This document shows, piece after piece, positions 22,388-42,917 of a stretch of 64,000 nt of DNA (positions are counted from its first letter, which is position 1; every line of letters begins with the position of its first letter). The position numbers were made by a program, and so were the translations under genes. Under the pieces are notes generated by a model. The model saw only the letters and a list, made by a program, of their open reading frames with translations. It did no database searches and was not told where the DNA came from. The DNA comes from Thermoproteota archaeon (GTDB lineage Archaea; Korarchaeota; JAOZGF01; JAOZFZ01), in assembly GCA_027492035.1 (NCBI GenBank), contig JAOZFT010000035.1:1-64000 (forward strand), written 5' to 3'.

Positions 22388-23299
22388 TTATTTTGCAAAA
22401 ACTAGGTTTATAACATCTAAAATATTTGACACTTCCACTACTTCTATGTTGTAGCCTTTTTCTTTTAGGTAGTCTTGTAAATTAACAGTTACTACTTTGT
22501 ACTTGATAATTTTTAACCCAGGAATTATTTCTGTTTCATGAGGGACAAGTTTACGTATTTTTCCTTGGCCTTCAGGTACAAGGAACAATTTTCCTCCTCT
22601 CTCAGCTGCAGCTACAGCTTTTTCAGTTACTCCACCAACTTGACCAATTGAGCCGTCTTTTTCAATTGTACCTGTGCAAAAAACATCTTTTCTCATCTCT
22701 TTATTTTCAACTGTTGCAATTATTGCTGCTGTTAAAATTGCTCCTGCACTTGGCCCATCTACAACCTCTATTTTTTCATTTGAAGAAATAGAAACCACTA
22801 TGTCTATGTTACTGAATTTCCTACCTGTCACTTTCTCAGCTACTTCTTTTGCTGCTTCTAAACTGTTTTGTAAGTCTATGCCAACCTTTGGCTGAATATT
22901 AGTTAGAATTCTTCCTTCGCCATTTATGATTTCGATTTCAGCTTGCAACACATGCCCCACGTATTTATACTCGAAAAAACCTGCAGGCTCCATTGAAACA
23001 GCTACAAGGTTTACTGTTTTAGAGCCTAAAACATTTCCGTGAGTTGAAACATTTACTGTGTTATATTTCTTTCTGTAATACTCCAAAGATTTCTTTGTCA
23101 ACTGTAAAGTTTCATTAAGTACCTCAACTTGCTTTTTTAATAAGTTATTTTCCTTTGACAACCTGTTTAATTCATTTTTCAATGTTTCAATCTGAATTTC
23201 TGAAGCAGGATTTGCTTGAGTTGATTTGTAAAGTTCTACAGAAAGGAAAATGTTAAGTATCAAACTTAGTGTAAGTATTAAATAAGCAACTTTTTTCAA
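22388..23299 (-). CDS. membrane-anchored S16 (Lon-like) serine protease
   Basis: 303 residues, matching the archaeal COG1750 proteases. An N-terminal span (VAYLILTLSLILNIFLSVELY) is followed by a short coiled coil (about 35-75, leucine-rich) and a Lon-type proteolytic domain. The catalytic Ser is in DGPSAGAIL and the Lys in GGVTEKAVAAAERGG, giving the Ser-Lys dyad. There is no AAA+ domain, so it does not unfold substrates by itself. It probably acts outside or at the membrane surface. Single gene downstream of the phosphatase gene. Confidence 0.9.
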   Translation of the reverse strand: MKKVAYLILTLSLILNIFLSVELYKSTQANPASEIQIETLKNELNRLSKENNLLKKQVEVLNETLQLTKKSLEYYRKKYNTVNVSTHGNVLGSKTVNLVAVSMEPAGFFEYKYVGHVLQAEIEIINGEGRILTNIQPKVGIDLQNSLEAAKEVAEKVTGRKFSNIDIVVSISSNEKIEVVDGPSAGAILTAAIIATVENKEMRKDVFCTGTIEKDGSIGQVGGVTEKAVAAAERGGKLFLVPEGQGKIRKLVPHETEIIPGLKIIKYKVVTVNLQDYLKEKGYNIEVVEVSNILDVINLVFAK

Positions 23300-25207: not shown

Positions 25208-26740
25208 ATGAAACTTGAAGAAGAATTAATTAAACCCGGCGACCAATTCATCAAAAAAACAGTGAGCCTCTGCCCAGTTTGTTCAGCCAGAATAGAAGCA
25301 GTTATCTTCCACAGAGACAACAAAGTTTACATGAGGAAGAAATGCCCTGAACATGGTGTTTTCGAAGAAATCTACTGGGCTGACTACAAACTATGGAAGG
25401 AGTACTTAAAATACGATTATGTCGGAGACGGGTTAAGTAACCCCCGCACTAAAACAATTAAGGGATGCCCCTTTGACTGCGGCATATGTCCTGAACATAA
25501 GTCCCACACCGTACTTGGAATAATAGACATAACTAATAGATGTAACATGAAATGCCCTATATGCTTCGCAAATGCAGCTAGGGCTGGTTACGTTTATGAA
25601 CCTAGCCTGGAAGAAATAGAAGAAATGATTAAGAACCTAAGAAAGAACTCTCCTGTCTCAACAACTGCTTTACAACTTAGCGGAGGAGAACCTACGGTTA
25701 GGGATGACTTGCCAGAAATAATCAGGACAGCTAAAAAACACGGGCTCAGTCACGTGGAAGTAAACACTAACGGTATAAGATTTGCTAAAGACATTGCTTT
25801 CTACCATGAATGTTTCAAAGCAGGAATGTCAACTGTTTATTTACAGTTTGATTCCTTGAAACCTGAAGTCTATGAAAAACTTCGAGGTTTTAACGTTCTT
25901 CCCTACAAACTAAAACTTTTAGAAAACGCTAGGAAAATAAAGCATGGAAGCATTGTTTTAGTTGTAACCTTAGCTAAGGGAGTTAATGACGAAGAAATTG
26001 GAGAAATTATTCGTTTCGCTGCTGAAAACAAAGATGTTATAAGGGCAATTAATGTCCAGCCTATTTCTTTTTCAGGGGCTGCTAAAAAAGAAGAAATGAA
26101 GAAAATGAGGATCACTATACCTGAATTTCTTAAATTAGTTGAGAAGGAGACAAATGGCAAAATAAAGGTTTCAGATTTCCGAGCTATACCTTGGACTTTA
26201 CCCGTGTCTAAATCGGTGGGGGCTTTAAAAAACAGGAAATATCCTGAATTCACAAACCATCCTCACTGTGGTGCAGCCACCTTCATAGTTGTTGAAGACA
26301 ATGGCGAAATAAATCCCATCACAAAGTATGTGGACGTAGATAAATTCTACGATATACTTTGGGACGTTTATAACTTGGCAATCGAGGGTAAGAAATTTAA
26401 GGCCAAGCTCAATATGTTAAAAATTGTAAAGACGGTTAAGGGAGGGCTGTTCCGCAGATTCCTATTGGATATATTGACATCAGGAACCTATGAGGCGTTG
26501 GCTAAACTAATGAATAAATTGATCATGATCGGTTGCATGCATTTTATGGATGCTTGGAACTTCGATTTAGAAAGGGTGCAACGCTGCACAATACATTATG
26601 CTACTGTAGATGGGAGAATAATTCCCTTCTGTACAATGAATACTTTACATCGTGAACCTTACGAAAAAATGTACAGTGTGAAACCTGAAATCTGGCTGGA
26701 AAGAAACAGGGAAAAGGAATTAACTCCTTCCATTACCTAA
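25208..26740 (+). CDS. tes: Tes-type radical SAM enzyme (tetraether lipid synthase)
   Basis: 510 residues, the size of MJ0619, the founding tetraether synthase. The radical SAM motif is CNMKCPIC (C112, C116, C119). Extra cysteines flank it, as in Tes: CPVC and KKCPEHG near the start, and CPFDCGICPEHKSHT just before the core, likely holding further Fe-S clusters. Other SAM-fold motifs are present: LQLSGGEPTVR and HVEVNTNGIR. Tes couples the phytanyl tails of archaeol into membrane-spanning tetraethers. Divergent from a TrmB gene. Related methylases of this subfamily exist, so the exact lipid product is an inference. Confidence 0.8.
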   Translation: MKLEEELIKPGDQFIKKTVSLCPVCSARIEAVIFHRDNKVYMRKKCPEHGVFEEIYWADYKLWKEYLKYDYVGDGLSNPRTKTIKGCPFDCGICPEHKSHTVLGIIDITNRCNMKCPICFANAARAGYVYEPSLEEIEEMIKNLRKNSPVSTTALQLSGGEPTVRDDLPEIIRTAKKHGLSHVEVNTNGIRFAKDIAFYHECFKAGMSTVYLQFDSLKPEVYEKLRGFNVLPYKLKLLENARKIKHGSIVLVVTLAKGVNDEEIGEIIRFAAENKDVIRAINVQPISFSGAAKKEEMKKMRITIPEFLKLVEKETNGKIKVSDFRAIPWTLPVSKSVGALKNRKYPEFTNHPHCGAATFIVVEDNGEINPITKYVDVDKFYDILWDVYNLAIEGKKFKAKLNMLKIVKTVKGGLFRRFLLDILTSGTYEALAKLMNKLIMIGCMHFMDAWNFDLERVQRCTIHYATVDGRIIPFCTMNTLHREPYEKMYSVKPEIWLERNREKELTPSIT

Positions 26741-26793: not shown

Positions 26794-26994
26794 TCATTGA
26801 GAAACAATTTTTGCAACTTCAATCTTCAATCCTTCAATAAAATTTTTAAAGGAGGAAAACAACTTGCTCAATAATGACTTAACACTTTGAAAAACAGTTT
26901 TTACAGGTTCCTCCACTGCTGAAAAGAAAAAAATTAAGAAAACCAGAAAAACGAAGAGAGTTAAGAGCATTTTCTCCATACTTCTAGAAAACAA
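26794..26994 (-). CDS. possible small membrane protein, 66 residues
   Basis: Short minus-strand frame between tes and the secretion ATPase gene. It has one strong membrane span (MLLTLFVFLVFLIFFFSAV) followed by an amphipathic tail, which is a coherent small-protein design. It starts at TTG 26994 or, as likely, ATG 26979. No family recognised. An AT-rich gap can yield such frames by chance, so this is tentative. Confidence 0.4.
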   Translation of the reverse strand: MFSRSMEKMLLTLFVFLVFLIFFFSAVEEPVKTVFQSVKSLLSKLFSSFKNFIEGLKIEVAKIVSQ

Positions 26995-27117: not shown

Positions 27118-29010
27118 ATGATTACTCTAAATTGCCGTTGCAAGGAAATAGCTGACCCAGCTAAATGTGTGAAATGCATCATCCAAGAATTTCTTTTGCA
27201 CCCCAACAAGTTTAATTCGTCACAGATATTGTTAAAAGGTGAAAATTTTGCCTTTACAGTAAACATAAGCTACTTAACTGATTTCTTAAATAAAACAAGT
27301 AAAGAAATACTTAAAATAAAGGGGAAAGACAGAGAATTAGTTAAACCTATTTATGAACTAATTAAGGGAAATCCTTTAAAAGGGGTTCAGGCGCTTCAAT
27401 ACTTTTCAAAAAGGTACAAAATCTACAAAAAACTACTTAAGAAAGCAAAAAAAACAATTCTCTACAAGAAATTCTTTAAAAAATATGAAGAGAAGGGAGT
27501 AATCATTTATGAAGAAGTGCTCCAAAGAAGAATTCTGGAAAGAAACAATGAACCTCAACCTTTAACCAAACCAAACGGTTTAAATTTTCTTGAAACAAGG
27601 AAGAAAGGGCCATACATCTACAATTTTTACCTCACTGAAAACCAAGGAATTCACTTGCAGATAAAAAAGTTAACTGAAGTTTTGGGTTTAGACAAAGAGA
27701 AAATAAATAAGGTGAAAGAAGAACTAGAAAACTGTGAATTAGATTATTTAAACATGGATTTCAACCAAGTAATCGAGGCAAGAAAAGACCTCGCTAAGTC
27801 GCTTCTGCGTTTCTATTTCCCCCTTTTAAAAGAAGAGGAATTGGAAAATCTTTCGCTTGAATTAGCTGTTTCAAACACTAAAGTTGAAGAAATCTTCCCG
27901 CTTATCTTGAAAGGGAATGGAATAACCGAAATCTACGGTGTAAAAGGAAGAAACCTTTACATTGACCACGTAGACTTTGGAAGATGTCAACTTAATACAC
28001 TCTTGACTCAAGAATTAATAAATAAAATAGAGACTCTTATTCTGACTGAAAACTACAGCTTAATCAGTTTTAGACATCCAAGCATAAAAACAGACATTGA
28101 AAGCAAGTATTACCACTCTAGAATAAGCTATGATATCCCTCCCCTATCCAATTATGCACTAGACATAAGAAATTTGCATCTACAAGATTTAACAATTCCG
28201 AAACTTATAAATTTGGAAATGCTCACCTTGGAAGCAGCTGTTTTTCTTGTTTGGCTTGTTTGGAGCGGAACCTCAATTTTGATCACTGGACCGACAGGAG
28301 CTGGTAAAACAACACTAGCTAACTCATTGCTCCCTTTTCTGGGTTTCAAAAAAAGATTGATTTCTATTGAGGACTTAAGAGAAATAATGGATTTGAGCAG
28401 ATTCGGTGTCTTACATACCGCCTACGAAATCCCTCCTTTTGAAACTTTAAATGAAAAAGACAAATCTAAAGTTCTAGAAATATATAAAACCTTGTGGAGA
28501 AACCCTGATGTGGTTTACATAGGTGAGATACGTAGACCTGAAGAAATGGAAGCATTCCTTTTAAGTTTAGATAGCGGGATTCAAACCATAGCAACTGTCC
28601 ATTCATCAAATTTGGAGGAATTGGAGAGAAAAGTTAAGAGATGGGGGTATTATTTAACATTCCCTGAAAGCATAGTCGTGCTTTCTAAATTGAAAAGTGG
28701 GCACAAGGTACTTAGAAGAGTTTCTTCGATATACCACCCCACACAAGAAAAAATTCTCTGTAGTTTCAGGTGGGATAACAAACTACTGCAAACAGTTAAA
28801 ACAGAAGTAAACCTCTACGAAACAGCACCTTTGAAAAAAGTCAGGAAAAAAAGCTATTTATCAATTTTTGCCTTTAAAAAGGCGTTAACAACTATAAGGA
28901 ACTCTTTAATGGAGATGTCCCAGAAAAACCCAACTCCTGAAGAAATTTTAGTGAAAGTTAATGAGTGGGAGGGAAGAGTTTTTGAAAGGAGTTCAGTTTA
29001 TGCTAAGTAA
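27118..29010 (+). CDS. type II/IV secretion ATPase (ArlI/TadA-like)
   Basis: 630-residue cytoplasmic hexameric ATPase that would power the secretion or pilus machine encoded downstream. The C-terminal ATPase domain has every family motif: Walker A GPTGAGKTT (from G391), Asp box SIEDLREIM, Walker B VVYIGEIRRPEE and His box TIATVHSSNLEEL. The middle region (about 190-370) matches the N-terminal domain of archaeal GspE/ArlI proteins (ISYDIPPLSNYALDIRN). Odd feature: four cysteines at the start (CRCKEIADPAKCVKC) that could bind zinc. It is longer than ArlI (about 550) and ends inside the next ORF. Confidence 0.92.
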   Translation: MITLNCRCKEIADPAKCVKCIIQEFLLHPNKFNSSQILLKGENFAFTVNISYLTDFLNKTSKEILKIKGKDRELVKPIYELIKGNPLKGVQALQYFSKRYKIYKKLLKKAKKTILYKKFFKKYEEKGVIIYEEVLQRRILERNNEPQPLTKPNGLNFLETRKKGPYIYNFYLTENQGIHLQIKKLTEVLGLDKEKINKVKEELENCELDYLNMDFNQVIEARKDLAKSLLRFYFPLLKEEELENLSLELAVSNTKVEEIFPLILKGNGITEIYGVKGRNLYIDHVDFGRCQLNTLLTQELINKIETLILTENYSLISFRHPSIKTDIESKYYHSRISYDIPPLSNYALDIRNLHLQDLTIPKLINLEMLTLEAAVFLVWLVWSGTSILITGPTGAGKTTLANSLLPFLGFKKRLISIEDLREIMDLSRFGVLHTAYEIPPFETLNEKDKSKVLEIYKTLWRNPDVVYIGEIRRPEEMEAFLLSLDSGIQTIATVHSSNLEELERKVKRWGYYLTFPESIVVLSKLKSGHKVLRRVSSIYHPTQEKILCSFRWDNKLLQTVKTEVNLYETAPLKKVRKKSYLSIFAFKKALTTIRNSLMEMSQKNPTPEEILVKVNEWEGRVFERSSVYAK

Positions 29011-29794
29011 CTTGGCGAAAATAAGTTTTAAAGCATTAGGAAGTAAAGTGAAGCCTCCCCCTAAGTTGAAATACGTGCTTAAAAAAAGAAACTCTAAATT
29101 ATCCCCTCTACAATTAACCTCCCTAATTCTATTTATTAATCTACTGCTTTCTTTTTTCTTAATTATTTCTGTGGTTCTCTTTTTTCAAGATTTATTTTTA
29201 GCCTCAATTATTCCCCTTATAACTTATCTAAACTATAAAGTATTATATCCCAGTATGGTAAATTTTTACTTTAACGAATTAATTGCTGAATATGAGTCAG
29301 GTTCTCCAGAATTTCTCGAGTTTTTTTCGGCTGGAATAACTAGTACCGGGAACTTACCCTACAGCATCAAAAAAGTTGCTGGAGCAAATATTAAAAAATA
29401 TAGCTCTGACATGAAAAAAATCTATAAAAGAATTAAATTGTATGGAAATCTTCCTAAAGAGGAGTTGCTAAAGTATATTGAAAATGAACCGTTACCTGTA
29501 AAAGAAGAAATAAAAAGTCTTATCTCATGTTTAGATGAAGAAGATTTTGAAAATTCATTAAAAACAGCTGTTTCAAGTGCGAGAAATAAGATAAGACAGA
29601 AATACATATTACACAGTAAAAACTTAGCTTTCAAAATCAATTTTTTCACCACCCTAAATTTCATTTTAGCTATTTCCCTCCTCCTTATGTTTTCACTCTA
29701 CAACTTTCCACCTGAAACTTTGTTGTTAACTGCTTTAGTTTGGCTTTTCTTTTCATTTAAGGTTTTGGGTGTGAAAAACTTTGAAGAATCCTAA
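29000..29794 (+). CDS. TadB/ArlJ-like secretion platform membrane protein, first half
   Basis: 264 residues with two hydrophobic pairs (about 45-90 and 215-260) around a soluble helical domain, the layout of a single T2SSF platform unit. The helical core has a typical T2SSF pattern (FLEFFSAGITSTGNLPYSIKKVA). The ORF begins at 28961, but ATG 29000 has AAAGGAG about 10 bases upstream and leaves an 11-base overlap with the ATPase gene. In archaella the platform ArlJ is one protein of about 550 residues; here it appears split between this gene and the next. Confidence 0.75.
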   Translation: MLSNLAKISFKALGSKVKPPPKLKYVLKKRNSKLSPLQLTSLILFINLLLSFFLIISVVLFFQDLFLASIIPLITYLNYKVLYPSMVNFYFNELIAEYESGSPEFLEFFSAGITSTGNLPYSIKKVAGANIKKYSSDMKKIYKRIKLYGNLPKEELLKYIENEPLPVKEEIKSLISCLDEEDFENSLKTAVSSARNKIRQKYILHSKNLAFKINFFTTLNFILAISLLLMFSLYNFPPETLLLTALVWLFFSFKVLGVKNFEES

Positions 29795-30467
29795 TTTTTT
29801 AACTGTGAAACTTAAGAAGTTGTGGAGAGAAAAAGAAACAGATATAGAAAAAGAGAAAGAACTTATCTACTTCCTTAAAAACATTGGCTTGAAATTTCAA
29901 CAAAAGAAAAGTTTGGAAACAGCTTTAATTGAAGCTTTAAAAGAAAACAAAGCTATTAAAGTGAATGGAAAAACACTTCAAGCTTTAATTACTGGTAAAA
30001 GCACTGTTAAAGAGATTTTGAATATTTTAAAAGAAAAATTCAAAAGCTACAGAATATTTACGCAGCTCTTAGGTTTAATTGAGCTTCATAGACTGGACAC
30101 TGAATACATTGGTAAAAGACTAGTTTTCACTTGCGAACAAATAATTCCCTTCCTAGACCTTAAGAAGGAAAGAGAAGAAATATTCACCAGTAAAAGGTTA
30201 CAGTTCCGTTTCCTAAACGGAATTTACTCTTTTACATTGGGTGGGTTAACTACCCTCTACACAGCCTTCACTTTACTTCCAAATGGGGCTGTTTCCTTTT
30301 TCGAAAAACAAATCAACAAAAAATTGTTAGTAATCGAAATAACTATTTTACTTATTATTCAGTCGGTTCTCGGTTCAAAAATAGTTAAAGATAACTTAGC
30401 TTTCATTCCTCTTTATGTCTTAATCTTCCTTCTCTCCCTAAAATACTTTTGGTTGCTGTTTATCTGA
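29781..30467 (+). CDS. TadC-like secretion platform membrane protein, second half
   Basis: 228 residues. A soluble helical N-terminal part (about 1-145) with a T2SSF-like organisation (LIYFLKNIGLKFQQKKSLETALIEAL) is followed by three membrane spans (about 145-228). It starts at TTG 29781, overlapping the previous gene by 14 bases. The order ATPase, platform half, platform half copies the TadA-TadB-TadC order of Tad systems. Assignment rests on order, topology and the helical pattern; sequence similarity by eye is weak. Confidence 0.65.
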   Translation: MKNPNFLTVKLKKLWREKETDIEKEKELIYFLKNIGLKFQQKKSLETALIEALKENKAIKVNGKTLQALITGKSTVKEILNILKEKFKSYRIFTQLLGLIELHRLDTEYIGKRLVFTCEQIIPFLDLKKEREEIFTSKRLQFRFLNGIYSFTLGGLTTLYTAFTLLPNGAVSFFEKQINKKLLVIEITILLIIQSVLGSKIVKDNLAFIPLYVLIFLLSLKYFWLLFI

Positions 30468-30484
30468 AAAAGGAGGTAAGTAAA

Positions 30485-30877
30485 TTGGAGGAGACAATAA
30501 GCACTTCTTTAATTTTAGCTTTGAGTTTTACACTTTTCCTAGTTACGCTTTCATTCTTCTCTGAATTTTCGGTTCAGTCAAGGAAGAAATCACTGCAAAA
30601 TCTTCTAGAAAGAATGGCTACCGATTTTGATGGAGTGATTTATTCAGTGGTAGGTGGAGGTGCTGAGTATCAAACGTTCTACTTGCCAAAAAACTTGGAA
30701 ATTCATTCGCTTACAAGTAAAGGTTCCTCAACCTTAATTTACTGCGTAAATGACGTTTACGTTGAAAGAGTTTACCCCTTCACTGTTTCAGGGTTTATTC
30801 ACATAAATGAGTCAAACTACTACTTTATCCGCTTCAGAAGCAACTCTTCAGCTGTCACTATAGAGTTGGTGAATTGA
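30485..30877 (+). CDS. small bitopic pseudopilin-like protein 1
   Basis: 130 residues, unknown family. A strong AGGAGGT at 30471 points to TTG 30485 rather than the ORF start at 30449. The protein then begins with a short acidic stretch and one span (ISTSLILALSFTLFLVTLSFF), followed by an extracellular beta-rich domain of about 95 residues. This is the layout of TadE/pilin-like subunits, but I see no standard class III cleavage site. Its stop overlaps the next start by four bases. Confidence 0.65.
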   Translation: MEETISTSLILALSFTLFLVTLSFFSEFSVQSRKKSLQNLLERMATDFDGVIYSVVGGGAEYQTFYLPKNLEIHSLTSKGSSTLIYCVNDVYVERVYPFTVSGFIHINESNYYFIRFRSNSSAVTIELVN

Positions 30878-31314
30878 AAATGTTTAGAAATGTGCTTTCA
30901 ATAAATTTTTATTATCTATTGGGGTTAATGCTTATCTTTTTCAGTTTAATATTCTCAATCAACCTTTACTTATGGTCTAAAAAATGTGCAGCTGAGTTTC
31001 TTGTAAGTGACTTAGCTGAAGTAGTTAAGTATTCCACAAAACCCCAATATAGAGAAGTTTCAATAATTTACAAAACCCCTAATCTTCCCTTCAACTACAC
31101 CTTAATAATTTGTAATGGCACAATATATGTCAAATCAAATTTTCTTTTCGATCTTAAAAGTTCACCCTCATTCCTCAGGCCTGGTTACATTCAGAAAAGT
31201 TCAAACGCGAAAGTTAGAAGAGTTTTATTTCTACATAAAGGCTCCATTTTACTAATTAAGGGGGGATGGATAGATAAAGGAGGAACACAGTTAACAGCTC
31301 TAAAAGGAAGGTGA
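30874..31314 (+). CDS. small bitopic pseudopilin-like protein 2
   Basis: 146 residues with one N-terminal span (YYLLGLMLIFFSLIFSINLYLW) and a beta-rich C-terminal domain. Starts at TTG 30874, overlapping the previous stop as TTGA. No family recognised. It shares size, topology and operon position with its neighbours, so a role as a minor pilin or assembly factor of the secretion machine is likely but inferred. Confidence 0.65.
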   Translation: MKMFRNVLSINFYYLLGLMLIFFSLIFSINLYLWSKKCAAEFLVSDLAEVVKYSTKPQYREVSIIYKTPNLPFNYTLIICNGTIYVKSNFLFDLKSSPSFLRPGYIQKSSNAKVRRVLFLHKGSILLIKGGWIDKGGTQLTALKGR

Positions 31315-31321
31315 TTTTCCA

Positions 31322-31531
31322 ATGATTGAAGGGATAGAGCTAAGTTTAACATTCACTGTATTCTTAATGCTTCTTCTCTTACTTCTTTCATTAACATTTC
31401 AAATGGAAGTTGTTGATGTGAAGATTGTGGAAAAAGTCAACTTTACGAACACTTCTAAAAATTTAACTCAGCCTATACCTGTCATTGAAAACCATAAATG
31501 TTTTTTCAAAGCTTGGAGGAGAATTAAATGA
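31322..31531 (+). CDS. small bitopic protein 3 of secretion locus
   Basis: 69 residues. One N-terminal span (SLTFTVFLMLLLLLLSLTF) and a short tail. ATG start eight bases after the previous stop, behind GGAAGGTGATTTTCCA. Its stop overlaps the next ATG by four bases (ATGA). It is very small for a pilin; it may be a minor subunit. Function unknown. Confidence 0.6.
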   Translation: MIEGIELSLTFTVFLMLLLLLLSLTFQMEVVDVKIVEKVNFTNTSKNLTQPIPVIENHKCFFKAWRRIK

Positions 31532-31914
31532 GAAACCTCTTCCTTTGGGACATAATAGCTATGGTTCTAATTACCTCTTTCTTTCTTTCCAACCACTACT
31601 TCTCACCAAAAACCGCTTCATCAAAGAAGATACTTTCCTTCACTGAAGGCTCTTTCAAGGAAATGAAGAGGGTCTATTTCTCAGGTGAAGTCCTAAGAAT
31701 CCTTTGGGGGAACGTAACCATGGAAGACCTAGACAAAACATTCTGTCAAAATTCCATAAACAGCTGCCGTTGGATTGTTCAGCTTAAAGGTGGAAAAGGT
31801 TTTAGAATTGAAAAAGGGCCTGTTCTAAATTTTTACTCTTCCTCAATCGAGAAAATAAACTTGTACAATGAATCTCTTCTTTTAATCGTAGAAAAAGGGG
31901 TTGGAAAACCTTGA
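31528..31914 (+). CDS. small bitopic protein 4 of secretion locus
   Basis: 128 residues with one N-terminal span (LFLWDIIAMVLITSFFLSNHYF) and a beta-rich extracellular part containing two cysteines close together (CQNSINSC), which could form a disulfide. Overlaps both neighbours by four bases, so translation is coupled. No family recognised. Confidence 0.65.
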   Translation: MRNLFLWDIIAMVLITSFFLSNHYFSPKTASSKKILSFTEGSFKEMKRVYFSGEVLRILWGNVTMEDLDKTFCQNSINSCRWIVQLKGGKGFRIEKGPVLNFYSSSIEKINLYNESLLLIVEKGVGKP

Positions 31915-32852
31915 AAGGGATACCCTTAATTTTCACTCTTTGTTTATTGATTATTGGAACAACTTTAACTTTTAAAATAGTTCACCCTGACAGAACAGAG
32001 TACTTGAAAAGTTTGAAAAGCATGGAGAGAACAGCTTACGAAAGAGACATAATGTTGGCCCGTGTAACCCTGAAACTAAGGGGGCTTCTTGACAAAAAAA
32101 TTTGGGAAACATCTAAAACTAAATCAAATCCTTACACGAGCTTAACATTAAAAAATTCTGAAATAACGAAAATAACTCAGGAAGAAACAGATAAAGCTAA
32201 GGAGAAGGGGTTTCAGTTAAAACTTGCACTGAAGGTTTATCTTAAAGAACTGAAAAATTACTGCCCTGTTGATATAGAATTTAATAGAGTGATCTTAAGC
32301 GCCACAACAGGTGAGAAGGAAGAAGATAAAGGAGCTGTACAAACAATCATACACACAAATTATTTATTGACTGATTCCTTGGGTAACACCTTTATAAAGG
32401 AGAAGAGGGAAATTGACATAGTTCACCCCGTAAGAATTTACCTACTTTACAAAGTCAGCGAAGCACTTGAAAAAATAAATTTCACCCAACACCTCAATAA
32501 ATCCTTCTTCATAAACAAAAACGGAACACTTACGCCGAAAGAAACAATTGTTGCAAATTTGGAAAAACAAATGGACGAAGAAATTTCCAATTGCCTCTTC
32601 AAACTGCTCGGCTACAGGGAACTAGACGTCATTAAGTCTCAACTTAAACTAGAAATAAAAGTAAACAAGGAAGTTATAGTTGAAGTAAAGCCTCAGCCAA
32701 GTAACCAATCAAAAAAATTATTTTCTATAACCCTTTACTTGGAAGGTTACGTTAAAGATGTAAAAACTGACTCCCTAATTTATATCAGAAACCGCCTGGA
32801 AAAAGTCAAATACAGGTTTGAAAACCTAGAAAAGGTTTCATTTATTTTATAA
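31911..32852 (+). CDS. bitopic protein 5 of secretion locus, 313 residues
   Basis: Largest of the five bitopic proteins. N-terminal span (IPLIFTLCLLIIGTTLTFKI), then about 290 extracellular residues with mixed helix and strand, including a long charged region. Starts at TTG 31911 overlapping the previous stop (TTGA). No family recognised. Size and position recall a larger minor pilin or tip protein, but this is speculation. Confidence 0.65.
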   Translation: MKGIPLIFTLCLLIIGTTLTFKIVHPDRTEYLKSLKSMERTAYERDIMLARVTLKLRGLLDKKIWETSKTKSNPYTSLTLKNSEITKITQEETDKAKEKGFQLKLALKVYLKELKNYCPVDIEFNRVILSATTGEKEEDKGAVQTIIHTNYLLTDSLGNTFIKEKREIDIVHPVRIYLLYKVSEALEKINFTQHLNKSFFINKNGTLTPKETIVANLEKQMDEEISNCLFKLLGYRELDVIKSQLKLEIKVNKEVIVEVKPQPSNQSKKLFSITLYLEGYVKDVKTDSLIYIRNRLEKVKYRFENLEKVSFIL

Positions 32853-33050
32853 AAGAGAAAAATTACTTATTTTTTGTCAGAAACACGTCTTAAACTTTCT
32901 TTTAATAATTAAAATTTATTAAATTACCTTTTACTAAACTCTCCCCCCTCCCCCCTTTTTCTTGACTTATGAAACTAAAAAAGTAGAAGCAAAGCTTTTT
33001 TCCGCAACCAACTCTACTTTACTTTAATTGATGGTAAGAGGGGACTAGAA

Positions 33051-34757
33051 TTGTTAAGAAGGCCTCAAAAAATAATTCTTTTCTTGCTTGTACTTCTCCT
33101 TTCGTTCACCTCTTTTACGTTGTTAACAGCTTCCAAAACTGAACGATTTAAGACTCATGAATCTGTCGGCGGCCTTTCGTGGAGCGGTAGAACAGTTTAC
33201 GCCTACTGCAGAACTGGACCCCATAAAATAACCTTTTCACAACCTGTTTCAAAAAACACAGCGTATTCCAAGGCTTGCAGTTACTGCACAGGAACATTAA
33301 CAGTGAACATCCACGGCCAAAACTGTTGGTGGGACAATCAACAAAACAAGTATGTTTGTTCAGGAGCTTCCTGTGGAGAAGGAAGCGCACCTTTAAAACC
33401 TGCAACTGTACAGTACAGCTTCAACAATGAAGGTAAAGTTACAGAGGTAACTTTCTACTGTTTAGCAAACCTATACGTTACCGCAAGCAGTCATTGCTGC
33501 GGAAGCTTAACAGCAACGGCAACTTCACCATGTGGACACATGCAAAAAACAACATACATAAGCTGTCCAAAACCACCAAGCAGCGGCTCAAGTAACTCAG
33601 GCAGTTCAGGAAACTCTGCATCCAGTAACAATAATGAAGGCAGTTCAGGTAACTCAGGCAGTTCAGAAAATACTGGTTCCAGCAACCAAGGATCCAATGG
33701 GCAAGGTACTGCCTCAGGAAATTCCTCCATCAATTCAGGCAGTAGTTCAAGGTCCAAATCTTCACCTCACGCCTCTCTTGAAATTTCCAGCATTCCTCCT
33801 CTGAATTTAAGAGTTGGTGAAACTTTAAATTTTGAAGTTAAGGTTTCAAATACAGGAAATGACTACGCGACAAGTATTAGAGTTGTCTCTGAAGTTAATG
33901 GCGGTTTCAAACCTTCACATATGGAGAAAAAAATAAATTTGTTAGCTCCTAAGCAAATTAAATTGCTTAAGTTTTCCACACTAGCCATTAAAAATGGAAC
34001 CTACCGGTTTAAAATTATAGCTACTGCAAACAATGGTTTAAGTGCATGGACAGGTTTTACCGTGATTGTTGAAGGTGAAGAAACCAATTTAAGCCGTGAA
34101 AGAAATCAGTTAAATCCCTCCAATGAAAACTGCTGCCAAGAAACAGTTAACTTCCTTTTACCTGAAATTAAGGCTTGGTTAAGTAAGTCAATAGTTAAAC
34201 CTAAAGAATTAATTTATTGTTTCGCTGAAGTTAAGCCTGGAAGCTATCCAATAAGAAAGGTTACTTTTAACGATAAACAAATGACTGCTTTGCCAAGCAA
34301 CTTATGGAGAACCTTTATTTACGCCCCAGATAAACCTGGAATCTACAACTACTTAATTGAAGCATTCGACTCTAAAAACAATAAAGTAACAGCTGAAGTA
34401 GTTTTGAAAGTTACAGAAATAAAATCAAAAAAATTAACTAATACCTCTAATGTTGCATCTAGAGGTAATGAAACTTACCTAAAAATAAAGGTAAGTATCC
34501 AAGAGATAAAAGTTTTTCAACCAATTTTAACAAATTCCACATCTCGCTATGAAAAAAATTTAAACAGTGGAATGAAGCCTGAAGATGGTGTTGTTAACAG
34601 CTTTATTTACTTTCTACCCTTAGTGGTTGTTCCACTTCTGCTTATAATTCTTGCAAACAGAGAAAAAGCTGAGAAACACACTAAAATTAAACCAGCGTTC
34701 ATAAGGGAATATTTAACGATAGAAAAAAAGAAATCTAAAATAAAGAAAGCGTTTTAA
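33051..34757 (+). CDS. large Cys-rich surface protein with Gly/Ser/Asn linker
   Basis: 568 residues, membrane anchored. Signal-like start (IILFLLVLLLSFTSFTLLTA); a Cys-rich domain (about 45-175) with 14 or so cysteines including CSYC, CC and CGxx pairs, unknown family; a linker of about 60 residues almost only Gly, Ser and Asn (about 178-238); a CARDB-like beta domain (about 240-345, LNLRVGETLNFEVKVSNTGNDYATSI); another beta domain (about 365-460); then a C-terminal span (FIYFLPLVVVPLLLIILA) and basic tail. TTG start behind AGAGGGG. Likely the surface effector or scaffold of the secretion locus. Confidence 0.75.
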   Translation: MLRRPQKIILFLLVLLLSFTSFTLLTASKTERFKTHESVGGLSWSGRTVYAYCRTGPHKITFSQPVSKNTAYSKACSYCTGTLTVNIHGQNCWWDNQQNKYVCSGASCGEGSAPLKPATVQYSFNNEGKVTEVTFYCLANLYVTASSHCCGSLTATATSPCGHMQKTTYISCPKPPSSGSSNSGSSGNSASSNNNEGSSGNSGSSENTGSSNQGSNGQGTASGNSSINSGSSSRSKSSPHASLEISSIPPLNLRVGETLNFEVKVSNTGNDYATSIRVVSEVNGGFKPSHMEKKINLLAPKQIKLLKFSTLAIKNGTYRFKIIATANNGLSAWTGFTVIVEGEETNLSRERNQLNPSNENCCQETVNFLLPEIKAWLSKSIVKPKELIYCFAEVKPGSYPIRKVTFNDKQMTALPSNLWRTFIYAPDKPGIYNYLIEAFDSKNNKVTAEVVLKVTEIKSKKLTNTSNVASRGNETYLKIKVSIQEIKVFQPILTNSTSRYEKNLNSGMKPEDGVVNSFIYFLPLVVVPLLLIILANREKAEKHTKIKPAFIREYLTIEKKKSKIKKAF

Positions 34758-34791
34758 CAAACTTACTACTTCCATTTTTAAAAAAGGGTGC

Positions 34792-35760
34792 ATGGGAATG
34801 ATGAGTATAGGATTCGCTAATTTCCGTGGAGGAGTGGGTAAAACAACAATCGCTTTCTCTACAATTCTTTCAATGGCTCAGCTAAAACCAGCTGAGAAGG
34901 AGAAAAAATACATTTTTGTTGAAGCTGATTTCGGAAGCAACGCTGCAACACGGATATGGGACCCAAATTTTGAAATGGAAAAATTCCGGACGTTAAGCGA
35001 TTACTTAAAAGGTAAGTGTGAAGTTGACGAAATAGCCTATGTAAGTGATAGATACCCTATTTACAGAGAAATAGCCTTCATACCTTCAGGCAAACTAAAT
35101 ATTGAAGAAACAAGTTCAATCAAAGAAACAAATAACCTCTTAAACAAGATGAGAGAATTAAAAGAGTTTCTTGCCTCCAGAGCTGAAAAAGTAGTAATTG
35201 ACTACCCTGGCGGGGGAGGTTTAAACCATTTAGAGAACTACTTCCTTTTGTTCACTGTCACAGATGAAATAGTGCCTGTGATTCAACCTGATCCCCCAAG
35301 TATAGAAGCAGCAGATAAACTCATAAATTTCGCCCTCCTCAGCGGAGTTAAATACAGAATGGTTGTTGTTAACAAATACAGTAAAAAATTTAAGAAATTA
35401 CTTAAAGTATCTGAAGAAAAACTGGCTGTAAATGGGCAAGAAATCAAAATATTTACGGTAAACAAAGATGAGCAGGTGCCGCTTCATTGGAGTAAATTAA
35501 AACCAGTAGTTGTTAAGAAAAACCGCGTCAGAAAAGACATTGAAAAAATAGCGGCCTTTCTTCTAGATTTAGAAAATGGAACTGAAACAAAAAGCCAAGA
35601 GCAAACTGTTGAGTCTTCCCTTAAGCTAAAAACTAACAAGTTGAAAAAGATTTTTTATATCCTGAAAAACAAAGCAATTTTCTTAGGTAGGGAAAAAAGA
35701 AGTAAAGAAGAAATTTTCAAGGAATTAGAGGCTTGGCTTGAAGAAAACGAAACTGCATGA
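34792..35760 (+). CDS. ParA/MinD-like ATPase with atypical Walker A
   Basis: 322 residues. Deviant Walker A is FRGGVGKTT where the family has KGGxGKT: the signature Lys is replaced by Arg, while the second Lys is kept. Walker A' is FVEADFGSNAAT and Walker B VVIDYPGGGG. In Tad systems a ParA-like protein (TadZ/CpaE) places the pilus, often with a changed signature Lys, so this could be its counterpart. A charged C-terminal tail (about 255-322) is extra. Starts with ATG behind AAAAGGGTGC, 34 bases after the surface protein gene. Confidence 0.85.
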   Translation: MGMMSIGFANFRGGVGKTTIAFSTILSMAQLKPAEKEKKYIFVEADFGSNAATRIWDPNFEMEKFRTLSDYLKGKCEVDEIAYVSDRYPIYREIAFIPSGKLNIEETSSIKETNNLLNKMRELKEFLASRAEKVVIDYPGGGGLNHLENYFLLFTVTDEIVPVIQPDPPSIEAADKLINFALLSGVKYRMVVVNKYSKKFKKLLKVSEEKLAVNGQEIKIFTVNKDEQVPLHWSKLKPVVVKKNRVRKDIEKIAAFLLDLENGTETKSQEQTVESSLKLKTNKLKKIFYILKNKAIFLGREKRSKEEIFKELEAWLEENETA

Positions 35761-35803
35761 AAAATACTTTGTTTTCACAAAAGGCTAAAGGCTTGAGGTA
35801 GAA

Positions 35804-36523
35804 ATGAATAAAACATTTATTTTTTTTCAGCCTTTAGCCTTCTTCGTGGGTGTTGCGGCGAATTTATTTATTGAAAACATATCTTTTAACCACTTCTATT
35901 TCTACCTCACAGGAACAGGGGCAGTTACATCGTTACTACTTTCCTCTTTCTTAAACGCATCCCTTTTCCTTTTACTAGGGTACTTAAACCTGGCTGCACC
36001 CACCACATTTACTGTGTTCATTAATGGGCTTTACTTCGGGGAAACCCTAAGAAAAATAGGCAACCCTACCTTACTTTTAGTTTTCATCCCTACAAAGGAG
36101 TTAGTTAAGGAGGTAATCCCTGGTTTAACTGCTTTCCTAAATGTTTTTGCAGGGCTTCAAATTTTTAAACTGGGAAGCGAAATAAGAAAAAGAAATTCCT
36201 CTTTGGCCTTAAACACTGTAAAATTTTCAGTTCTACAATTTATTTCCTTAATTCCATTCATTACCCTAAGTTTTTTAGAAAATAATGGCATTCCAGCCTT
36301 TGAATGGGTTTTTGAATTAAAAACCAGCATCTCCAACCCATACTTCACCCTCCTTTTCTTTCTTTCAGGTTTCGAGTTCCTATTAAAACGATTGATTAAC
36401 TGGAGGACAAGGAAGTTTCAAGTTTATGTAGGGGAGAGTGTGAAGGATATAAAAACAGTAAAGGATAGAGAAAAAGAAGCTGTAAAAGAAATACTTTTCC
36501 TTCTAGAGGAAGAAAAAAATTAA
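35804..36523 (+). CDS. polytopic membrane protein at end of secretion locus
   Basis: 239 residues with about six membrane spans and a charged cytoplasmic tail (about 205-239). The central part (TFTVFINGLYFGETLRKIGNPTLLLVFIP) weakly recalls the SpoIIM/YtrH-type membrane family, but key residues are absent, so I leave it unnamed. Follows the ParA-like gene by 43 bases with GAGGT before the ATG. Converges on and overlaps the JAMM gene by four bases. Confidence 0.65.
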   Translation: MNKTFIFFQPLAFFVGVAANLFIENISFNHFYFYLTGTGAVTSLLLSSFLNASLFLLLGYLNLAAPTTFTVFINGLYFGETLRKIGNPTLLLVFIPTKELVKEVIPGLTAFLNVFAGLQIFKLGSEIRKRNSSLALNTVKFSVLQFISLIPFITLSFLENNGIPAFEWVFELKTSISNPYFTLLFFLSGFEFLLKRLINWRTRKFQVYVGESVKDIKTVKDREKEAVKEILFLLEEEKN

Positions 36524-36897
36524 ACAGTCTCTTTAATTAACTTTTCACCTTTCCTGTCGTAAACATGGACGTCTTCAACTGAAAGAAAGGGGTAAGTTAA
36601 GATGACTATGACAAAGCCGTATGCATTGTTTAAATCAGCCACTGAGGGGTTAGGGTTGCCTGAAGGATGGGAATGTACAGAACCAATAATTGACGCATCC
36701 ATTGGGATAAGGTAAGGGTTAAAACCTGCTGAAGCAAAACCTTGAAAAAACATGGGAGGAACAACGAATTCGTTCACAAAAATTTCTTTCTTCTTAACTT
36801 TACCCCTAAGTAAAAGAATCATCTCTTTTGGGAAAGATTTCCTTGCAGCTTCTAAAAGCTCTTTCAACAACTTCTTATCAAATAATACCTTTTTCAC
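36520..36897 (-). CDS. JAMM/MPN-domain metalloprotease (JAB)
   Basis: 125-residue zinc protease domain. The JAMM residues are complete: E25 (FPKEMILLL), H75 and H77 (VHSHPSG), S85 and D88 (NPNPSVADL). Archaeal JAMM proteins can remove ubiquitin-like SAMP modifiers from proteins or process sulfur carriers. Starts at GTG. No SAMP or E1-like gene nearby. The catalytic family is firm; the substrate is inferred. Confidence 0.9.
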   Translation of the reverse strand: MKKVLFDKKLLKELLEAARKSFPKEMILLLRGKVKKKEIFVNEFVVPPMFFQGFASAGFNPYLIPMDASIIGSVHSHPSGNPNPSVADLNNAYGFVIVILTYPFLSVEDVHVYDRKGEKLIKETV

Positions 36898-37036: not shown

Positions 37037-37735
37037 ATGAACCCCTACAATTTAACTTTAACACAAATCCTTTTAACCTTAACAGGCTTATTTATAGGTT
37101 TAACTTCCTGGTGGAGCCTAACCAAAAAATATAAAGAAACCTGGATTACACCACGCTACCACCTCCTCTCCCCCTTAATAATTGCCATCTCCTTTCCCTC
37201 AATAATCCTTTCAGGTTCCCAACGCAGCATATTAGGTACGTACATCTTCTACTCTCTAATGTTAATAACTCCATTCGTTGACAAAATAATTACGAAAAGA
37301 AACTGGAAAGAGTACGGGTTCAAAAAAGACAGCCTCCCTTCAGACCTCTTGTTAGGCCTGGGGTTCGGATTAGCGGGGTTAGTAGGTGCTCTATTTAAAG
37401 AACCCTCCTGGACAATAACAAAGGAATTTATCCTTTACAACATGTTCTTCTTTATTCCAGCTGAAGAAATATACTTCAGAGGATTTATTCAACCAGTCAC
37501 CCAATCTAAACTCAATAAAAACTTGTCAAACCTAATCCAAGCAACACTTTTCTCTTTAGCATTCTATGCCTGGGGCTACAACTTGAAAAAAACATTCTTG
37601 GTTTTTGCGGCAGGGGTAATTGAAGGTGAAATATATAACAAAACACACTCCGTTTTCTGCACCTATGTTACACAAACAGCAGGTGATATTTTGCCCTCCG
37701 TAATAATTTATAACATCTTGAAAGTAAACCTTTAA
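37037..37735 (+). CDS. CPBP-family intramembrane protein (motif 2 altered)
   Basis: 232 residues, about seven spans. Motif 1 is present: IPAEEIYFRGFI (EExxxR). The second motif, normally FxxxH, reads ATLFSLAFYAWGYN and lacks the His. The third region has THSVFCTYVTQTAGD where HxxxN/D is expected. Intact members are CAAX-type membrane proteases; with the His missing, this one may be inactive or act differently. SD AAAGGTAAAGAA before the ATG. Confidence 0.7.
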   Translation: MNPYNLTLTQILLTLTGLFIGLTSWWSLTKKYKETWITPRYHLLSPLIIAISFPSIILSGSQRSILGTYIFYSLMLITPFVDKIITKRNWKEYGFKKDSLPSDLLLGLGFGLAGLVGALFKEPSWTITKEFILYNMFFFIPAEEIYFRGFIQPVTQSKLNKNLSNLIQATLFSLAFYAWGYNLKKTFLVFAAGVIEGEIYNKTHSVFCTYVTQTAGDILPSVIIYNILKVNL

Positions 37736-40463: not shown

Positions 40464-42917
40464 ATGGTTGCCCACTACGGTGTTCAGCAAGTAAAAAATA
40501 GAAATAAATCATTGGAGAAAGAGTTTATAAGCATGATCATAAAGAAAGGAATAAGTAAGTTAGAGGAAGAATATCCACTACCTCGCCACACGGAGAAAAA
40601 TGCTTTCATATTAACTGACTCATCCGGTAAAATATTGGCTGCAAACGAAAACATTGAAAAAATTCTGAAATACAATGAAACTGAATTGTTAGGAAGAAGT
40701 TTCCTCTCCCTTTTCACTCCACAAATTCAAGGGCATTTATTAGCTGTTTTTAACTCCTTATCAGCTATATCAACAAAAACAGGTAGAGAATTTTCAGTAC
40801 TTCTTTCTTCTTTCGAATTAATGGATAAAAATGGTTCAAAGATCCCAATTAAAACATATCTTGCTCAGCTAAATCTTAACAACAAGAAATATTTTCTTTT
40901 CCTTTTTAAAAAGGATTCAAAAAAACAAGAAAAAATTGAAAAAACAAAGAAAATCACGGAAAGAATAAGTAGCTATGCATATAACATACTTGACTTCTTC
41001 CCAGAAGCCACAATACTCTTTGATGCAGAAGGGAAAATAATCTACTGTAACAATGCAGCTAAAGAAATTTTGGGGTACGAAAAAAATGAATTGATAGGTA
41101 AGAAAATAACTTCACTTTTCTCAAAAAAATACCGAAAATGGTTTGAAGAAAAACATCTCCCCTTTCTTAGAAGCCTGAAATTTTTTAAACCTCATTATCA
41201 TTTAGAAAAGGAGGTTGTTACAAAAGATGGAGAAACTATCAAAATGGAAACACGGGTTTCAATTCCCAAACACACAGACAAAAAAGACTTTTTAGGCATC
41301 GTCACACTTAAACCCATTTTCTCAATTAAGACGGGCAAAATTCTTTTGCCAAGTGGAAAAGAATTGAAGGAAACATCAGAAGCATTCAAAGAACTGCTGT
41401 TGACAAGCTTGGATCATGCAAACTACGGCCTAATAATTTTAAACCCTAAAATGAAAATTGTTTGGGTAAACAAATGGATTGAAAGATTTTATGGTTTGAA
41501 AAAGGAAGAAACGATAGGGAGAGGCAAAAAAGAAATCATTAAAGAGAAAATTAAATGGTTTTTTGAAAACCCAGACGAATTTGAACGTAGAATACTGGAA
41601 ACCTACGAAAAAAACCTTTACTTAAGCAAAGCAATATTCCATGTTTTACCTGGGGAGAAAAGGATGGATAAGTACGTAGAATACTCTAGCTATCCAATAA
41701 CTGCAGGAGATTTCCAAGGTGGAAGAATAGAAATTTACTATGATGTAACAGAAAGAGTGGAAAAGGAGAGGGAACTTGAGCAACTTAAAGAATTTAATGA
41801 GAGAATAGTTGAGAGTTTGAATGAAGGGTTATTGTTGGAAAATGAGAAGGGGAAAATAATTTTTGTTAACTCAAAACTCTGTGAAATGCTTGGGTACAAT
41901 GAGAAAGAATTAATAAATCATCACTGGTCAAAAATAGTCCCTGAAAAATACTTGAAAATTGTCCAGGAGGAAACTGATAAGAGGCCCTATGGCGTGGCTA
42001 GCACATATGAAACTTTCCTCTTAACTAAGGAAGGAAAAGAAATCCCGGTAATTGTTTCAGCCACTCCTTTATTTGAAAATGGAGTATATAAAGGCGTGAT
42101 ATCTTCACTTATAGAAATAAAGGAGAGGAAAGAACTGGAGGAGAAGTTAAGGAAAAGTTATGAGGAATTGTCCAGCTTTGCTCACCATGTTTCCCATGAA
42201 TTGAAAGAACCCTTAAGGAGCATGACTCTTTTTTCAATCTGTTTAAAGGAAAAACTTGAAAAAATAGACGTGGATCAAGTTTTGCGCAAAGAAATGGATG
42301 ACTACCTTTCAAGGGTAATTAAAGCTGGTAAAAGATTAAATGCAATGGTTAATGAGACCCTGAAACTAGCTTCTGTAGAAGCTGAAACTGAACCTCCTGA
42401 ACCAATTGACTTAAATGAATTATTAAATGATGTTCTTTTCGACCTTGAAGCGTTAATAAGGGAAAAAAATGCTAAAATAGTTGTGGAAAAACCATTACCT
42501 AAAATAATGGGTAGGAAAACACAAATATGTGAAGTTTTCCAAAACCTGGTCAGCAACGCTTTAAAATTCAATGATAAACCAAACCCCAGAGTTGAAATAG
42601 GTTATAGAAAAGAAAACATGCACAGCGTGTTCTATGTAAAAGATAATGGGATAGGAATGAAGGAAGAGGACATAACCAAAATATTCATTCCTTTTCTAAG
42701 GTTAAAAAATAGTAGAGAGTATCCGGGGACAGGTCTTGGTTTATCTGTAGTTAAGAAAATAATTGAGAGGCATAACGGTAAAATATGGGTTGAAAGCCAA
42801 CCCGGGAAGGGAAGCACGTTCTTTTTTACACTTCCATCCGCCCTACTCAAAAAGTCCTCGTCCCCCGCCTCTCCGCTCGGGGGGGGGGGTGGTTCTACGC
42901 AAGATAAAAAAAAGTAA
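40464..42917 (+). CDS. soluble sensor histidine kinase with four PAS domains
   Basis: 817 residues with no membrane span, so a cytoplasmic sensor. PAS domains at about 38-160, 175-295, 310-430 and 440-560, each with the ILxxN-type start (for example IIYCNNAAKEILGYEKNELIG). HisKA carries H578 in VSHELKEPL. HATPase_c has N-box FQNLVSNALKFN, G1 DNGIGM and G2 GTGLGLSVVKKI. The last 20 residues (SPASPLGGGGGSTQDKKK) are low complexity and include an 11-G run in the DNA. No response regulator gene is adjacent. ATG behind GGGAAGGA. Confidence 0.93.
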   Translation: MVAHYGVQQVKNRNKSLEKEFISMIIKKGISKLEEEYPLPRHTEKNAFILTDSSGKILAANENIEKILKYNETELLGRSFLSLFTPQIQGHLLAVFNSLSAISTKTGREFSVLLSSFELMDKNGSKIPIKTYLAQLNLNNKKYFLFLFKKDSKKQEKIEKTKKITERISSYAYNILDFFPEATILFDAEGKIIYCNNAAKEILGYEKNELIGKKITSLFSKKYRKWFEEKHLPFLRSLKFFKPHYHLEKEVVTKDGETIKMETRVSIPKHTDKKDFLGIVTLKPIFSIKTGKILLPSGKELKETSEAFKELLLTSLDHANYGLIILNPKMKIVWVNKWIERFYGLKKEETIGRGKKEIIKEKIKWFFENPDEFERRILETYEKNLYLSKAIFHVLPGEKRMDKYVEYSSYPITAGDFQGGRIEIYYDVTERVEKERELEQLKEFNERIVESLNEGLLLENEKGKIIFVNSKLCEMLGYNEKELINHHWSKIVPEKYLKIVQEETDKRPYGVASTYETFLLTKEGKEIPVIVSATPLFENGVYKGVISSLIEIKERKELEEKLRKSYEELSSFAHHVSHELKEPLRSMTLFSICLKEKLEKIDVDQVLRKEMDDYLSRVIKAGKRLNAMVNETLKLASVEAETEPPEPIDLNELLNDVLFDLEALIREKNAKIVVEKPLPKIMGRKTQICEVFQNLVSNALKFNDKPNPRVEIGYRKENMHSVFYVKDNGIGMKEEDITKIFIPFLRLKNSREYPGTGLGLSVVKKIIERHNGKIWVESQPGKGSTFFFTLPSALLKKSSSPASPLGGGGGSTQDKKK
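42879..42889. repeat. G11 homopolymer in 3' end of kinase gene
   Basis: Eleven consecutive G within an otherwise AT-rich gene, next to a short C-rich stretch (tcccccgcct). It encodes the poly-Gly of the kinase tail. Such runs slip in replication and in sequencing, so the true frame of the last 10 residues or so is uncertain. Confidence 0.8.

Follow-up and report, generated by a model that had tools for sequence, protein, structure and literature searches.

How does an archaeon use a secretion-type ATPase that is followed by a row of small membrane proteins without known family: for building a surface filament, for expelling protein or for movement? This question is raised by eleven plus-strand genes (g1 to g11) at positions 27118-36523 of the window, i.e. 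the 64,000-nucleotide stretch of contig JAOZFT010000035.1 (C38) analysed here, which belongs to a 1.87 Mb genome (93% complete) of a phylum that is probably Korarchaeota. A previous sequence-only reading had counted ten consecutive genes and had singled out the locus as a candidate for an undescribed system. The run and all its open reading frames (ORFs) are present as described, but the count is eleven by that reading's own list, and the system appears to be a divergent type IV pilus rather than something undescribed. We consider it likely that these genes specify an assembly machine for a type IV pilus, in which a small Flp-like pilin, whose own gene is found at another site, is polymerised into a thin filament on the cell surface; attachment is the most likely function. 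Judged by gene content, the parts of this Flp-type machine would be encoded at three or more sites of the genome, the window locus being one of them.

Results and Discussion

The core of the locus is a motor with a divided membrane platform, in agreement with the secretion ATPase of Tad/archaellum type and the two platform halves named in the sequence-only reading. The first gene, g1 (27118-29010, 630 amino acids), encodes an ATPase of the T2SSE/VirB11 family, which matches Pfam PF00437 above the cut-off (E 6.4e-19). Its NCBIfam matches to TadA-type (about 6e-14) and FlaI (about 9e-14) proteins are weak, nearly equal and both far under the cut-offs. It is followed by the TadB-like g2 (28961-29794, 277 amino acids, four predicted spans) and the TadC-like g3 (29781-30467, 228 amino acids). 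No Pfam match above threshold was obtained for g2-g8 and g11, yet the iterated g2 profile matches platform halves of other archaeal pilus loci (E 1.6e-10 to 1e-8), and that of g3 recovers 20 platform genes adjoining ATPases, together with weak matches in other archaeal loci. Hence, by profile similarity, g2 and g3 are a T2SSF-type platform in two separate genes.

The platform genes are followed by five genes for small proteins with a single N-terminal membrane span, none of which matches a Pfam or NCBIfam family, as the sequence-only reading had anticipated. To evaluate them, each was searched with a leave-one-out profile of its relatives, and each ranked first among the 825 ORFs of the window: g4 (30485-30877, E 3.5e-17), g5 (30880-31314, E 5e-16), the 69-residue g6 (31322-31531, E 2.6e-3), g7 (31528-31914, E 3.5e-3) and the 313-residue g8 (31911-32852, E 1.3e-28). 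g8 is the most conserved of the set and its iterated profile reaches 11 loci, that of g4 reaches 12; g5 has positional counterparts in three relatives (G001, G002 and G024), and g7 is colinear in three relatives. Together with the recurrence of the set in order, these first ranks show a system and not a chance run of frames, and by the profile evidence the coding status of g4-g8 exceeds chance. Within g1-g8, neighbouring genes overlap or leave short gaps, so that they form a single tight run. Four-base overlaps, claimed previously for the small genes, are found for g6/g7 (ATGA) and g7/g8 (TTGA), while that of g4/g5 holds only if TTG 30874 is taken as start instead of the alternative ATG at 30880. 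For g4, TTG 30485 behind AGGAGGT, giving 130 amino acids, is very probably the start, rather than 30449.

With this start, g4 has no leader and begins directly with M-E-E-T-I, comparable to M-N-E-V-I in G001 and M-N-E-T-I in G002. An AlphaFold2 model of g4, built on a three-sequence alignment and with a predicted local distance difference test (pLDDT) score of 88, places a 54-residue helix at residues 2-55, followed by eight strands. This predicted lollipop of long N-terminal helix and beta-sheet is the architecture of type IV pilins. In profile-profile comparison (hhalign), the g4 family aligns with Flp pilins at a probability of 57% over 29 columns and with g6 at 55%; these are modest matches that cover mostly the hydrophobic helix, while the positive control, FlaF against FlaG, reaches 43%. 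None of the g4-g8 families scored above 20% against FlaF or FlaG. The best assignment of g4-g8 is that of minor pilins or pseudopilins, which is firm only for the architecture of g4 and probable for g5, g6 and g7.

The candidate for the major pilin lies on another contig. Using a Flp-like profile that contained no sequence from the window or G001, a prepilin of 87 amino acids was found at C9:271714-271887 (E 1.1e-8), with MLQLIVSFLKKYLKSNKG before and VSEVIGEALLIAASISLF after the predicted cleavage site. The cleavage context, KSNKG directly followed by VSEVIGEALLIA, is a leader of the class III type. Of the 29 genomes compared from the phylum of the window, 27 contain a homologue of this pilin by profile search, as a rule a single one. 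The genome's single match to an A24 prepilin peptidase (E 3e-11) is likewise encoded in trans, at C9:583875. A small divergent ORF upstream of g1 (26797-26979, minus strand) was also considered as major pilin. It ranks second with the g4 profile (E 0.024), and G001 has an ORF of similar size at the matching position; a Flp profile built without it returns E 1.7, which is at noise level. The real major-pilin candidate is thus the C9 gene, and the small ORF is possibly a leaderless pilin paralogue, as its weak g4-profile match may suggest. A further proposal, that the two-span gene adjoining the C9 pilin is homologous to the two-span gene after g8 in Korarchaeum loci, was unsupported and was dropped.

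The leader of this pilin is not uniform within the phylum. Four Korarchaeum-type genomes (G003-G006) encode a form of the Flp-like pilin that starts with the mature N-terminus or no more than a few residues from it (MQQTIETILL...; L051:10826-11086, plus strand; L047:7169-7402, minus strand; L253; L255). Other members of the phylum have a leader, which is short and basic (RRKGVTGTLEQALL). It would be unusual for a major pilin to lack one.

Related archaea carry the genes together. In G001, the nearest genome compared and of the same family, g1-g8 are colinear, with g11 and g10 adjacent on the opposite strand. In G002, a member of the same order, g4-g8 are preceded by genes for ATPase, TadB, TadC, an A24-like peptidase (Pfam E 7e-5) and a 160-residue membrane protein, and G024 combines g4-g8 with an ATPase, a fused platform and a weak match to A24. 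The set is partly kept in Korarchaeum-type genomes, in which ATPase, a shortened platform, g4, two small single-span proteins and g8 follow each other and a surface protein of Ig/PKD (immunoglobulin/polycystic kidney disease) type is encoded close to the ATPase. Given this colinearity, the genes are not scattered among relatives, the outcome that the sequence-only reading had held to speak against a system. Moreover, the Flp-like pilin adjoins the ATPase in several relatives and in Asgard loci, where platform genes and Flp prepilins with a leader (K[GA]SPLVEEGLL) adjoin an ATPase of the same clade. As a separate observation, G016 and G022 contain a second, very divergent pilus-type locus (L276 and L277), which has an ATPase and a platform of its own, together with g4-like proteins and a ParA of g10 type. 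The ATPase of this second locus falls with those of other archaeal pili, outside the clade of the window.

To place the motor, we built an ATPase tree of 66 entries, which agrees with an earlier one of 54. Here, g1 sits in a clade of 13 entries from its own phylum, which is sister to 21 Asgard-grouped entries (support 98/79), and the joint clade is supported at 100/100. Bacterial Tad (100/97), the Thermococcus-type, Epd-like split-platform systems (99/88) and the archaellum (100/99) form separate groups. Nearly all of the 21 Asgard-grouped entries come from the phylum of G038. An entry from Lokiarchaeota (L067) is nested among them next to G132, and this phylum is thus very probably Asgard (Promethearchaeota). 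The combined clade of the window's phylum and Asgard archaea is real. This motor branch is common to nearly all sampled genomes of the window's phylum (29 genomes) and to most sampled Asgard archaea; in the Asgard-containing phylum, 152 of 196 sampled genomes match the ATPase profile at E < 1e-60. No firm sister group of the clade emerged. In a tree rooted with E. coli GspE, HofB and YggR the combined clade branches first with weak support (84/70), and approximately unbiased (AU) tests reject none of the three sister placements, namely Tad (p 0.39), the Thermococcus type (0.23) and all other archaeal systems together (0.13).

Three further genes follow g8 after a gap of 198 bases that contains a pyrimidine/T-rich tract (32940-32963), read directly from the sequence as a putative terminator; g9-g11 may be a second transcription unit. 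The surface protein g9 (33051-34757), previously held to be of unknown type, contains a CARDB domain of immunoglobulin (Ig) fold (Pfam E 7e-7), preceded by a signal-like N-terminus and a Ser/Asn/Gly-rich linker and followed by a C-terminal span, and is a candidate adhesin. Ig-fold proteins recur beside related loci: CARDB, PKD or Ig-like surface proteins adjoin L041, L047 and L051 as well as the Asgard locus L227. The ParA-like ATPase of the sequence-only reading is g10 (34792-35760), with an RGGVGKTT Walker A motif and the AAA_31/ParA fold (Pfam 2e-7); its best NCBIfam match is archaeal MinD (TIGR01969, E 2.8e-12), and a search against PDB sequences gave no match. Homologues of g10 adjoin the locus in G001, lie about 1 kb or less from the pilin gene in G024 and are found inside the second pilus-type locus in G016, G020 and G022, which supports a link of g10 to pili. 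The G024 homologue (L275:8527-9969, plus strand, 481 amino acids) carries an insert that starts with CVDGDSTIL directly after GKIGGG of the Walker A motif and, judged by eye, would be an intein. The last gene, g11 (35804-36523), encodes a polytopic membrane protein of no known family, with a homologue only in G001, next to the g10 of that genome. A SpoIIM-like identity, suggested by eye, was dropped as Pfam gave no match.

Taken together, these parts suggest the following mechanism. The A24 peptidase would cleave the leadered Flp-like prepilin, which would then be added at the base of the filament, driven by g1 as a hexameric cytoplasmic ATPase acting on the membrane platform of g2 and g3. Starting directly with their membrane helix, g4-g8 could nucleate or cap the filament as minor pilins or pseudopilins. 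g9 may serve as adhesin or envelope anchor, g10 may place or regulate the machine as a FleN/TadZ-like ATPase, and g11 would be an accessory membrane protein. That g1-g11, the C9 pilin and the peptidase cooperate, and that they yield a pilus with adhesive properties, is our inference. Several points weigh against this picture. The filament is predicted from the genes, and none has been observed. The pilin lies outside the locus, so the case for its pairing with the machine is drawn from co-occurrence of the families and from relatives in which the two are linked. A second, canonical archaeal pilus locus (L157) is also present in the genome, with an ATPase, a fused 639-residue platform and several N-terminal-span proteins, so the A24 peptidase may serve both machines. 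A comparison of the g4 model with solved structures in the PDB gave nothing significant (best E 0.065, top rows attributable to chance), and a model of g8 was poor (pLDDT 56) and was set aside. Finally, g9-g11 are linked to the system mainly through G001, in the case of g10 and g11, and through the type of protein, in the case of g9.

Could the small proteins themselves be the filament? In a pseudopilus secretion system, g4-g8 would form short filaments that expel a substrate, for instance g9, and the cell would not assemble a long pilus. Several pseudopilin-like genes indeed accompany the motor, the Flp pilin is encoded elsewhere, and an exported protein, g9, adjoins the set. However, the wide occurrence of the Flp-like pilin in nearly every genome of the phylum, and its position beside the ATPase in Asgard loci and several relatives, speak for a filament made of that pilin. 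With its C-terminal membrane span and signal-like N-terminus, g9 moreover does not need the machine for export. We thus regard secretion by a pseudopilus as unlikely.

The same parts could also build a pilus for motility or DNA uptake, with one ATPase both extending and retracting the filament. Bacterial Tad ATPases drive extension and retraction alike, according to two reports (PMC11300603, PMC12019362), and no separate PilT-like gene is seen in the locus, which fits a bifunctional motor. Recognised DNA-uptake genes and archaellum-type parts are, however, absent from the locus, and the Ig-fold surface proteins adjoining such loci suggest adhesion instead; we give this function a low probability. 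An archaellum-like rotary motor, to which the similar scores of g1 against FlaI and TadA profiles could point, is highly improbable: g1 falls outside the FlaI clade, the platform is split, the locus contains neither FlaH nor an archaellin-type gene, and FlaF and FlaG were not found by hhalign. An attachment pilus made of the Flp-like pilin is hence the reading that we prefer.

How does such a pilus compare with known systems? Among the closest are the EppA-dependent Clade 1 or Epd-like pili of Methanococcus and Thermococcus. Clade 1 pili comprise an ATPase, two TadC-like proteins, at least five minor pilins, a MinD/FleN ATPase, adhesins and EppA, with stand-alone major pilins of about 70 amino acids (Makarova et al. 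2016, PMC4858521). The window system shares the split platform, the many small N-terminal-span minor pilins, the MinD/FleN-type ATPase, the surface adhesin and the short stand-alone major pilin (PMC4858521, PMC6668835), but g1 lies outside the Clade 1 ATPases in another strongly supported clade, Pfam detects no DUF2341 adhesin in the locus, where g9 is of CARDB type, and the locus lacks a peptidase gene. With bacterial Tad/Flp (type IVc) systems it has in common the TadA-like ATPase followed by TadB-like and TadC-like halves, a Flp-like prepilin and a ParA-like ATPase. The earlier statement that the gene order copies Tad is nevertheless only partly correct, because this order holds for ATPase, TadB and TadC while the A24 peptidase and the Flp prepilin are absent from the locus. 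In addition, g1 falls outside the TadA/CpaF clade, and the Walker A motif of g10 begins at residue 12 and thus leaves no room for the N-terminal receiver-like domain of TadZ. A secretin (RcpA), outer-membrane partners and TadD/E/G-like genes were not recognised in the locus with Pfam and NCBIfam, a search confined to the locus. The archaellum (FlaI/FlaJ/FlaF/FlaG) has a homologous motor ATPase and, in FlaF and FlaG, likewise leaderless N-terminal-span proteins, but differs in its fused FlaJ platform and in the features named above. Asgard ATPase/TadB/TadC/Flp loci (e.g. L219, L222, L229 and L054) share the ATPase clade and the platform families, have a Flp prepilin alongside and in several cases a g4-like protein; unlike the window genome, they carry the pilin in cis, and no g5 or g8 profile match was found in the 19 loci examined. 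From its sequences, the window system would work like Clade 1/Epd and Tad pili and, by its ATPase clade, would be a member of neither.

Denise et al. (2019, PMC6668835), whose main text names neither Korarchaeota nor Asgard archaea, trace bacterial Tad back to archaeal systems of Epd-like type in which the platform is split. In the open-access literature, which leaves out most subscription papers and preprints, we found no description of the motor branch of the window or of an Asgard or Korarchaeota Flp/Tad-type pilus; as this coverage is partial, the lack of a description is not proof of novelty. It is tempting to go further and to propose that the locus belongs to a separate, undescribed major branch among type IV filament machines, one in which ATPase, platform, Flp-like pilin and the leaderless pilins of g4 type are each a family proper to the branch. 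It would have been inherited from a common ancestor of Asgard archaea and the window's phylum, would have gained the g5-g8 minor-pilin set in the latter and would have lost the leader of the major pilin in the Korarchaeum sub-group. We put this forward tentatively, as a proposal that falls a little short of an even chance.

The genes around the locus are of other kinds. Just upstream, a radical SAM protein with an HMPTM-type zinc ribbon (25208-26740, plus strand; Pfam E 2.3e-25 and 1.4e-20) is encoded, and further upstream lies a protein (22388-23299, minus strand) whose translation, judged by eye, has a Lon-type (S16) protease-like domain after an N-terminal membrane span and no recognisable ATPase domain. 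A JAB-domain protein (36523-36897, minus strand; Pfam E 3e-9) and a CAAX-type membrane protease (37037-37735, plus strand; Pfam E 1e-10) follow immediately after g11, and further downstream is a large PAS-type sensor histidine kinase (40464-42917, plus strand), read from its translation by eye.

Conclusions

Little is known about surface machinery in Asgard archaea and their neighbours, a subject that bears on the contact of these cells with partner cells. A pilus family that would occur in roughly three of every four genomes sampled from the Asgard-containing phylum offers concrete genes to test. For the question of how Flp-type pili originated, bacterial Tad and Epd-like pili would be joined by this family as a third lineage.

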